Origin: Pseudomonas sp. MAG733B
Lineage (GTDB): Bacteria > Pseudomonadota > Gammaproteobacteria > Pseudomonadales > Pseudomonadaceae
Length of the DNA: 64,000 bases
Assembly: GCF_036884845.1 (NCBI RefSeq)
Contig: NZ_CP145732.1
Location: 5,642,001-5,706,000 of the forward strand
Reading direction: 5' to 3'
The notes beneath the pieces are model-generated. The model searched no databases and was not told where the DNA came from. It saw only the letters and a list, made by a program, of their open reading frames with translations. Both the position numbers and the translations under genes were made by a program. Shown piece after piece: positions 10,103 through 11,539 of this stretch (positions within the stretch are counted from its first letter, which is position 1; each line of letters opens with the position of its first letter).

Positions 10103-10191
10103 TGTAGGAGCTAGCCTGCTAGCGATTGCGGTGTATCAGTCACATCTGTATCGACTGACACTCCGCTATCGCCAGCAGGCTGGCTCCCACA
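10103..10191. repeat. REP pair abutting the insertion sequence
   Basis: The arms 10103-10126 (TGTAGGAGCTAGCCTGCTAG...) and 10168-10191 (ATCGCCAGCAGGCTGGCTCC...) are inverted repeats with three mismatches. The right arm ends at 10191, three bases before the left subterminal inverted repeat of the IS110/IS1111 element. The insertion therefore lies exactly at the outer edge of this REP. Confidence 0.9.
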
Positions 10192-10194
10192 TCT

Positions 10195-10206
10195 ATGGAT
10201 ACCCCC
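10195..10206 (+). repeat. left subterminal inverted repeat of the IS
   Basis: ATGGATACCCCC pairs with the inverse of 11517-11528 with one mismatch. It lies on the side of the recombinase 3' end, next to the structured non-coding region. Confidence 0.65.
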
Positions 10207-10433
10207 ATTTCTGCAATACTGTTTTTGATGTGTGTTTGGCTTGCTTTCATCTATCCGGCGTCTGGGGGACGACCCTGCGCCTCGATGAGAATCGCGCCTG
10301 ACGGCCCTTCATAGGGAGAAGGCTTTTTCAGCCTTGTGGGAGCCCAGGGTAGTCGTCAGGCCGGTTGGCCGTTCACGTCATCTGTTATCCAGCATCGCAA
10401 AACCAGGTGGGTGGTGCTCGGGTGGCAGCGGGG
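10207..10433 (-). ncRNA. putative bridge/seeker guide RNA of the IS
   Basis: This non-coding segment follows the recombinase stop on the same strand, where IS1111-type elements are reported to encode their target-selecting RNA. The sequence shows a nested fold. An outer stem GCCTGACG/CGTCAGGC (10354-10361 with 10296-10303) is extended by CCCT/AGGG and encloses a small hairpin AAGGCT-loop-AGCCTT (10319-10324 with 10330-10335). A second stem CGAT/ATCG lies at 10283-10294. The loop on the 5' side carries GGCTCCCACA (10335-10344, minus strand), identical to the REP sequence at 10182-10191 that abuts the insertion. RNA ends and expression are inferred, not seen. It could instead be a mere structural end of the IS. 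Confidence 0.5.
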
Positions 10434-11459
10434 TCAAGCGTTCATCGCGCTTGACCCCGCCTTGAATTCATCATGGTGAGCGGCGATCGACCAGGCGATT
10501 CTTGCCAGTTTGTTGGCCAGGGCGCAGACCACACGGTTGGAATGATGGCGAGCCAGTAGCTGGCGAACCCAATCGGCTAGCGCTCCTGTCTGTCGTTCCA
10601 GCCCCATCAGATACACACGGGCGCATTGAATGAGCAGTCGCCTTTGATTTCGGTCACCGCGTTTGCTGATACCCAAAAGTACGGTCTTGCCACCGGTGGA
10701 ATGTTGTTTGGGCACCAGCCCAATCGAGGCTGAATAGTCTCGACCGCACTTGAACTGCTGGCCGTTGCCCAACTCCGCAGCCAGGACGCTGGAGGTGATC
10801 GGGCCTACGCAAGGTATCGTCATCAGGCGAGAAGCCAGATCATCTTCAGCGGCTTGGCGTTCAACCTGCTTGTCCAGCGCCTTGACCTGCCCGTCCAGGT
10901 AGTTGAAGTGCGCATGCAGTCCCAGCAGGATTTGTTTGATCAGCGCAGAAAATGAGCATTCCTCCAGCAGCGCTGGCAGTTCTTTGATGGAGTGAAAGCC
11001 TGGGGACAGGCTGATACCGACCTCCAACAGGCCGGCGTGAATCCGATTGACCGTAGCGGTGCGCTCCTTGATGTAGGACTCGCGCACTGAGTTGAGCATG
11101 GCCAGCGCTTGTTGCGCTTCGGTTTTCGGGGACACAAAACGCATGGTCGGGCGGCTCGCCGCCTCGCAAATCGCCATGGCATCGGCGAAGTCGTTCTTGT
11201 TGCTTTTTACATAAGGACGCACGAGATGAGGCGCTATGAGCCTGGGCATATGCCCCCATTTTGCTGCTTCTCGCGCCATATAGTGGGCGCCGCCACAGGC
11301 TTCCATCACCACCGTGCACGGTTCAAGGTTGGCCAAGTGCCTGGCCAGTCCCGCGCGATTGAATTTCTTGTGGTAGAGCTCATGACCGCGATCATCTTGA
11401 GCATGCAGATGGAAGGTATGTTTCCCTAGATCGATAGCGACAATAGTTACGTTGTTCAT
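10434..11459 (-). CDS. IS110/IS1111-family DEDD recombinase (transposase)
   Basis: The 341-residue protein has the two-domain IS110 architecture. An N-terminal RuvC-like domain carries the acidic tetrad D10 (IVAIDLGKHT), E53 (VVMEACGGAHY), D90 and D93 (KSNKNDFADAM). After a coiled-coil stretch there is a C-terminal transposase domain with IPCVGPITSSVLAAELG and the catalytic serine S254 in KQHSTGGKTVLLGISKRG. It catalyses cut-and-paste-like site-selective insertion through a circular intermediate. All key residues are present and there is no frameshift, so the copy looks intact. The start has GGAGG 8 nt upstream. Codon use is close to its neighbours, suggesting an element adapted to Pseudomonas. 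Confidence 0.93.
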   Translation of the reverse strand: MNNVTIVAIDLGKHTFHLHAQDDRGHELYHKKFNRAGLARHLANLEPCTVVMEACGGAHYMAREAAKWGHMPRLIAPHLVRPYVKSNKNDFADAMAICEAASRPTMRFVSPKTEAQQALAMLNSVRESYIKERTATVNRIHAGLLEVGISLSPGFHSIKELPALLEECSFSALIKQILLGLHAHFNYLDGQVKALDKQVERQAAEDDLASRLMTIPCVGPITSSVLAAELGNGQQFKCGRDYSASIGLVPKQHSTGGKTVLLGISKRGDRNQRRLLIQCARVYLMGLERQTGALADWVRQLLARHHSNRVVCALANKLARIAWSIAAHHDEFKAGSSAMNA

Positions 11460-11478
11460 GGCAATGGCCTCCGAAAGA

Positions 11479-11514
11479 CACCCTGTGAAAGCTTAGAGAG
11501 CAATCACAGGGTGT
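11479..11514. repeat. stem-loop upstream of the recombinase
   Basis: ACACCCTGTG (11479-11488) and CACAGGGTGT (11505-11514) are perfect 10-nt inverted repeats in the short upstream end of the IS. This hairpin would lie in the 5' leader of the recombinase message and could limit read-through translation from outside, or mark the circle junction promoter region. Confidence 0.6.
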
Positions 11515-11516
11515 GA

Positions 11517-11528
11517 GGGGGTAGCCAT
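11517..11528 (-). repeat. right subterminal inverted repeat of the IS
   Basis: GGGGGTAGCCAT is the inverse of 10195-10206 except for one base. It lies 11 bp from the stop codon of the adjacent EamA gene. Confidence 0.65.
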
Positions 11529-11539
11529 TTCATTAGGGG

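Follow-up and report, generated by a model that had tools for sequence, protein, structure and literature searches.

An IS1111-group element inserted at a REP

The window analyzed here, 64,000 nucleotides of the genome of Pseudomonas sp. MAG733B, carries a whole insertion sequence of 1344 bp on the minus strand (10192..11535). It encodes a recombinase (transposase) of 341 aa (10434..11459, minus strand), in which both PF01548 (E 8.4e-19) and PF02371 (E 2.2e-18) are recognized. Read along the minus strand, the element starts with a 7-bp left terminal extension, TAATGAA (11529..11535), and a left sub-terminal repeat, ATGGCTACCCCC (11517..11528), and finishes with a right sub-terminal repeat, GGGGGTATCCAT (10195..10206), complementary to the left one at 11/12 positions, and a 3-bp right terminal extension, AGA (10192..10194). 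The earlier note had called the recombinase IS1111-type, and this is borne out by both domains, the length, the motif and the terminal layout. Members of the IS1111 group have a DEDD transposase of 330-350 aa with these two domains, sub-terminal inverted repeats of 11-13 bp, flanked by terminal extensions of 7 bp (left) and 3 bp (right), a long downstream non-coding region, the motif GL-P----S(t)G, a fixed target without duplication and a circular intermediate. In the window element, the repeats are 12 bp long with 11 matching, 242 bp separate the stop codon from the right end, the translation contains GLVPKQHSTGG (TG is a known variant of the motif; Siddiquee et al., 2024, PMC11187229), and the target is the same in six copies and unduplicated at an empty site. 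The C-terminal part of the recombinase, with its transposase domain, aligns with IS621 (8wt6, E 5.8e-9) and ISCro4 (9t56, E 1.3e-8), although both are distant and the threonine of HSTGG aligns with the serine of the IS621 ESG.

The 6.65-Mb, single-contig genome holds six copies of the element, with recombinases that are 100% identical in five and 99.7% in the other (L006). All six are 1,344 bp long, start with TAATGAA-ATGGCTACCCCC and finish with GGGGGTATCCAT-AGA. Their left flanks differ, yet every one ends in CCC, and their right flanks all open with TGTGGGAGC, the head of a REP, giving an insertion at CCC^TGTGGGAGC. In the window, the right target flank is a REP pair adjoining the element (10103..10191), with 39-nt arms that are 85% complementary and more copies in the genome. 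A search with the joined flanks returned twelve loci, and six were inspected for empty sites: L145 is an empty orthologous site reading GCATAACCCC|TGTGGGAGCGAG, L147 is also empty and carries a single change next to the junction, and the differences are larger in L148, L149, L151 and L152. Because the six copies agree and L145 is empty, no bases are duplicated, and the positions of both ends and of the target are known to the single base, apart from one T that the two borders have in common. The REP head TGTGGGAGC occurs 952 times in this genome and CCCTGTGGGAGC 210 times, and CCC is present at 6/6 used sites, which has a chance of ~1e-4 by simple arithmetic that assumes independent sites. The element prefers REP sites preceded by CCC. 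IS110-family elements at Pseudomonas REPs have been tabulated before (Tobes and Pareja, 2006, PMC1525189).

Among 398 genomes of this genus, 53 carry a recombinase match at E <= 1e-60, with copy numbers that are lower bounds (at most five candidates were scored per genome). We studied 95 loci; ends were recognized in 79, giving 50 distinct non-coding regions, and the 16 with unrecognizable ends were dropped. The end search assumed 7-bp left and 3-bp right extensions with the anchors ATGG/ATAG and CCAT/CTAT, and all 79 fit. By identity to the window protein, elements were assigned to clades A (at least 62%, 33 elements), B (52-61%, 26), C (~41-51%, 12) and D (38-40%, 8). Same ends and same printed flanks were seen for L026, from the same genus, and L106, from Pseudomonas sp. 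M47T1, which places the host in Pseudomonas, as the earlier note had it.

A structured segment downstream of the recombinase

Between the recombinase stop and the sub-terminal repeat at 10195-10206 lie 227 bp (10207-10433) that the earlier note had described as a gene-free, structured RNA-like segment 3' of the recombinase. The list of open reading frames has none of at least 80 aa inside it, and a repeat does bound it; that repeat had been called the left one, but it is the right end relative to the recombinase, the left being 11517-11528. The stems named in the note (GCCTGACG/CGTCAGGC, AAGGCT/AGCCTT, the CCCT/AGGG pairing and CGAT/ATCG) are all present on the minus strand, and the reading as a structured, RNA-like segment with loops that match the target is supported. 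Across the whole window, Rfam gave 0 matches at gathering score.

A match to our covariance model R1 delimits the predicted bridge/seek RNA core (10248..10373), which, like all parts that follow, is on the minus strand. Its outer stem (helix 2) consists of a 5' arm, GCCTGACG (10354..10361), and a 3' arm, CGTCAGGC (10296..10303). Between these lie the top-strand target guide, GGCTCCCACA (10335..10344), the inter-guide hairpin AAGGCT..AGCCTT (helix 4; 10319..10335, with 10335-10330 pairing with 10324-10319), and the bottom-strand target guide, TCTCCC|TATGA (10309..10319). Two candidate donor guides, ATTCTCATC (10284..10292) and ATAGAT (10249..10254), follow in the 3' domain.

Folding energy of the one sequence was rejected as evidence, as both z-scores are weak: -0.33 for 10240-10433 (194 nt), where 63/200 shuffles fold as well, and -1.89 for 10240-10374 (135 nt), where 6/200 are as good. 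A single consensus fold for all 50 regions was likewise uninformative. Since the clades differ too much, we restricted pair counts to the 34 of the 50 regions that belong to clades A and B, comprising 30 distinct sequences; L082 was omitted from alignment A2, and A2 and A3 fed no count. The 34-pair structure has 94.3% standard pairs in these clades, a figure favored by the structure having been defined after the alignment was seen, and sliding the partner columns by 1-3 lowers the paired cells to 18-44%. The earlier note had named a lack of compensatory base changes among homologous elements as one of two refuting outcomes, and such changes are present: both sides change in 13/34 pairs and 34 cells, where shuffling gives averages of 5.7 and 11.7 (0/500). 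Overall, shuffles gave 0/500 for four of five measures; the fifth, further pair types, is less striking at 29 versus 25.4 (13/500).

The best-supported helices are the outer stem, with 5/9 pairs changed on both sides and 96.7% of cells paired, and the inter-guide hairpin (4/6 pairs). In helix 5, 86.7% of cells are paired, and in helix 7, 83.7%. The inner CCT/AGG pairing is invariant and is therefore no proof of pairing. G-U pairs occur within helices (columns 16-79, UG in 9/30; 18-77, GU in 5/30; 40-57, UG in 8/30). Structure beyond chance is thus hardly visible by folding energy and is visible by comparison with relatives.

Target guides, REPs and terminator-like hairpins

CCTG precedes a ten-letter stretch that is complementary to the right flank, and the letters after the hairpin equal the left flank and core. 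In the window, the top guide GGCTCCCACA is complementary at 10/10 positions to the flank TGTGGGAGCC (10182-10191). The bottom guide TCTCCC|TATGA, set against AACCCC|TGTG, matches at CCC and the core T, the fourth base forming a U.G wobble and the fifth being mismatched. Relatives carry other sets: the target TGTAGCAGC with guide AGCTGCTACA, TGTAAGAGC with GGCTCTTACA, TTTTTATGC with guide GCATAAAAA, and CCAACG|TTTTT with CCAACGTTTT. The top-strand guide precedes the bottom-strand guide in the window family, as it does in purified IS1111 seekRNAs (PMC11187229).

We measured these matches on 42 distinct guide pairs, each represented by a single flank and drawn from 78 of the 79 elements (L105, which has no right flank, was left out), allowing three registers in observed and shuffled sets alike. 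Top-strand guides match their own flanks at 7.31/9, compared to 4.11 with flanks exchanged and 5.92 with exchange within clades, and bottom-strand guides at 4.50/5, compared to 2.19 and 2.81 (0/5000 each), in statistics where related elements are not independent. Allowing G-U left the outcome unchanged. Some guides fit poorly: top-strand matches fall below 7/9 even with wobble in 6/42 pairs (L041, L048, L082, L079, L090, L095), and bottom-strand matches are at most 3/5 without wobble in 5/42. A check set from 29 model-search loci provided 14 top-strand guides outside the pattern-finding set, each new by at least one letter and with a right flank present; these match at 6.07/9 versus 3.97 shuffled (0/5000). 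This set keeps L120 and L132 despite wrongly picked ends, and omits repeated guides and L128, L129 and L140, which have no right end or no guide.

One genome (G129) contains TGTAGCAGC 182 times, against 17-44 times in seven other genomes, and elements there carry the matching guide. Two distantly related elements in it (L023, L053-L056, L159) both have guides for the TAGCAGCT target. Simple tracking of the host by guides was rejected on repeat counts: TGTGGGAGC is still commoner in G129 (806 times), and L029 has a target, TGTAAGAGCG, that is present just 3 times in the genome of that element, so the choice of guide is not simply dictated by whichever repeat is commonest.

Several relatives are inserted beside hairpins that resemble terminators. 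By a strict criterion (a perfect stem of at least 6 bp, G-U allowed, ending at the insertion point), a stem is flush with the insertion in 10/26 elements of clade B and 2/12 of clade C, and in 0/33 of A and 0/8 of D; such a stem is found at 7.3% of random positions, even with slack of up to 3 bases. T-rich sequence follows in all twelve hairpin-flush copies (L032, L031, L085, L041, L066-L069, L073, L081, L047, L072), which represent fewer than 12 independent cases because a single element accounts for L066-L069. All twelve are inserted where the stem of an intrinsic-terminator-like hairpin meets its T-tract, and the guides of these twelve match the flanks, poorly so in L041. By eye, L068 and L081 resemble textbook terminators, as do L116, L117 and L131 of five check-set elements. 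A looser fold criterion gave 26/32, against 918/3000 random positions and 319/934 positions before TTTT, and because of this high background we draw on the strict criterion. It appears that a shared RNA frame is used for REPs in one lineage and for terminators by some members of another. Terminators as targets of RNA-guided transposition were not found in the titles, abstracts and passages of the literature covered.

Searching with the model, we found matches at E <= 1e-5 in 60 of 398 genomes. Within the window genome it matches the six element copies (a seventh match, E 4.1, was ignored), with no RNA lacking a recombinase. Among the 29 further loci picked, a set that leaves out one place in G270 and four partial matches in G075, 15 have no recombinase match. 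Five of these end at a contig edge (L133, L139, L141, L142, L143); of the other ten, nine have no nearby left end and L129 has one weak match. A guide RNA and right end with an absent or partial recombinase were seen at L119, L122, L124, L125, L132, L135, L137, L138 and L140. The recombinase-less loci are probably element remnants, and we make no claim of independent RNAs.

Candidate donor guides and a proposed model for the RNA

Two short segments of the 3' domain resemble the element's own ends. Candidate donor guide 2 has the same letters as the junction of the circle, which is ATAGA|T in the window; the guide reads ATAGAT in clades A and B, ATACAT in C and ATATAC in D, where the ends give ATAGA|T, ATACA|T and ATATA|C, and it equals the junction in 50/50 regions and in 12/12 of a further clade, E. 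Candidate donor guide 1 (ATTCTCATC) faces the left end AATGAAAT and covaries with it in relatives: ATGGA/TTCCAT in L030, ATGGG/CCCAT in most of clade D, and CGATGAGAT/ATCTCATCG in L108. Over 26 distinct combinations, with clade E entries read by eye and equal five-letter words merged, 122/130 letters match and 19 combinations are exact, compared to 0/10000 shuffles overall and, within clades, 11/10000 (letters) and 45/10000 (exact matches). The window copy has one mismatch, which 8/13 clade A regions share; there is one each in L043, L075, L083, L164 and L166, and two in L161. Matches are exact in L030, L090, L093, L108 and L167, whose left ends are unusual. As end states are few and common to related elements, we regard the donor part as probable, not proven: the 3' domain probably pairs with the element's own ends, changing with them between clades.

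Clade E includes another IS1111-type element from the window genome, present in five copies (L007-L011) at ~32% protein identity, with ends TAATTGG-ATGGACTCGCCC and ACA and a right flank, TAGGAGCTG, that is another REP. The clade A and B model finds its RNA weakly (E 0.023). By eye, this element and its clade E relatives (14/30 loci examined, ends found in 12) repeat the guide plan, with AATTGGA/TCCAATT, and ATCGG/CCGAT in L167.

The anatomy, target site, structural covariation and guide-target matching are direct observations, and the guide-end matching is one made less firmly. Together with the published systems, they lead us to regard the segment, with high confidence, as the guide RNA (seekRNA or bridge RNA) of an IS1111-group element, a kind of RNA described in 2024. 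SeekRNAs, which in the IS1111 group are 70-100 nt long and co-purify with the transposase, have been demonstrated for four IS1111 elements, including ISPa11 at REPs, along with natural redirection (PMC11187229). ISPa11 shares with the window element its group, a REP target, a downstream non-coding region and the top-before-bottom guide order; its RNA was purified with the transposase, whereas ours is predicted, and the two are likened by description, not by sequence. Bridge RNAs were predicted in 93.0% of IS1111 elements, with donor-binding letters placed in a multiloop in six drawn cases, ISPa11 among them (Durrant et al., 2024, PMC11208160). Those RNAs combine a target loop with a donor loop, and ours shares the former and probably the latter, but there the IS1111 case was made by inspecting drawings and the experiments in the passages covered used IS621, whereas here it comes from covariation across a family. 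A family-wide covariation test of the IS1111 donor loop was not found in the passages covered.

In the model we propose, excision would join both ends into a circle, and transcription from a promoter spanning the junction would run through the recombinase gene and on into the RNA. A possible -35, TTGCAG (10211..10216, minus strand), can be read from the sequence 17 bp from a GATAAT that spans the junction, as in a predicted circle-only promoter; by eye, this layout is alike in clades A and B, with variants in C and D. A perfect 13-bp inverted repeat spans the recombinase stop codon (10428..10460, minus strand), with similar imperfect repeats in clade A and B relatives by eye; it may signal processing that separates the mRNA from the guide RNA. 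The outer stem would enclose the two target guides and the small hairpin between them, the first guide pairing with the top strand of the target (the REP head TGTGGGAGC) and the second with the bottom strand (CCC and core T). The 3' domain, through its segments matching left end and junction, would probably hold the donor ends, and the RNA-bound recombinase would join circle and REP in one orientation and without duplication. The transcription, binding and chemistry in this model are inferred.

An RNA that regulates the transposase and plays no part in target choice has a precedent in Ssr9, a ~180-nt sense RNA 3' of tnp in the REP-dwelling IS110-family element ISPpu9, described as an antisense-RNA sponge (Gomez-Garcia et al., 2021, PMC8450116). 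ISPpu9 and ISPpu10 of P. putida resemble the window family, by description, in lying at REPs, but Ssr9 was interpreted as a regulator of expression. Regulation alone does not predict loop letters that track flanking DNA element by element, within clades too; the two roles are compatible, and we consider a solely regulatory RNA very improbable. We think it just as improbable that the conserved pairing works as DNA, in a hairpin or recombination site: at the DNA level the stem is likewise an inverted repeat, and the RNA is so far predicted, yet the guides match both target strands in the order of purified IS1111 RNAs (PMC11187229), and G-U pairs occur in the helices. The leader upstream of the recombinase start contains another inverted repeat (11463-11529, 31-nt arms, 71%), which recalls the structured 5'-UTR of ISPpu9 (PMC8450116). 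Least probable of all is that the match to REPs is a by-product of a REP fragment in the region, with the protein recognizing the REP; the very frequent REP heads of this genome would favor it, but where the flanks are not REPs, relatives from clades B to D keep this RNA frame and carry guides matching those flanks.

More weight, though still well short of an even chance, goes to the possibility that only the target guides are genuine, with no donor loop in the 3' domain, and that the protein recognizes the ends via the sub-terminal repeats. The end-binding domain of the IS1111 system was stated as not known, and an 82-nt ISEc11 seekRNA alone supported movement (PMC11187229); since so short an RNA sufficed, a donor loop may not be needed. 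The mismatches of donor guide 1, including that in the window copy, and the small number of independent end variants fit this explanation, whereas the agreement of guide 2 with the junction in three states and the exact guide 1 matches at unusual left ends argue for a donor loop. We lean, with modest confidence, toward a guide RNA that would read both the target and the ends of its own element, whose loops would evolve separately, the donor letters with the termini and the target letters rewritten to other dispersed, structured host sequences, which would be REPs in one lineage and intrinsic terminators, cut between stem and U-tract, in another.

If this is true, terminators would be a class of landing site for RNA-guided transposition that we did not find in the literature covered. 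The natural variants supply pairs of guide and target, and of guide and end, for a small recombinase whose insertion sites are REPs or resemble terminators. They support an IS1111 donor loop, which the two 2024 papers treat differently in the parts covered here, and they make the donor-loop question in this group directly testable.
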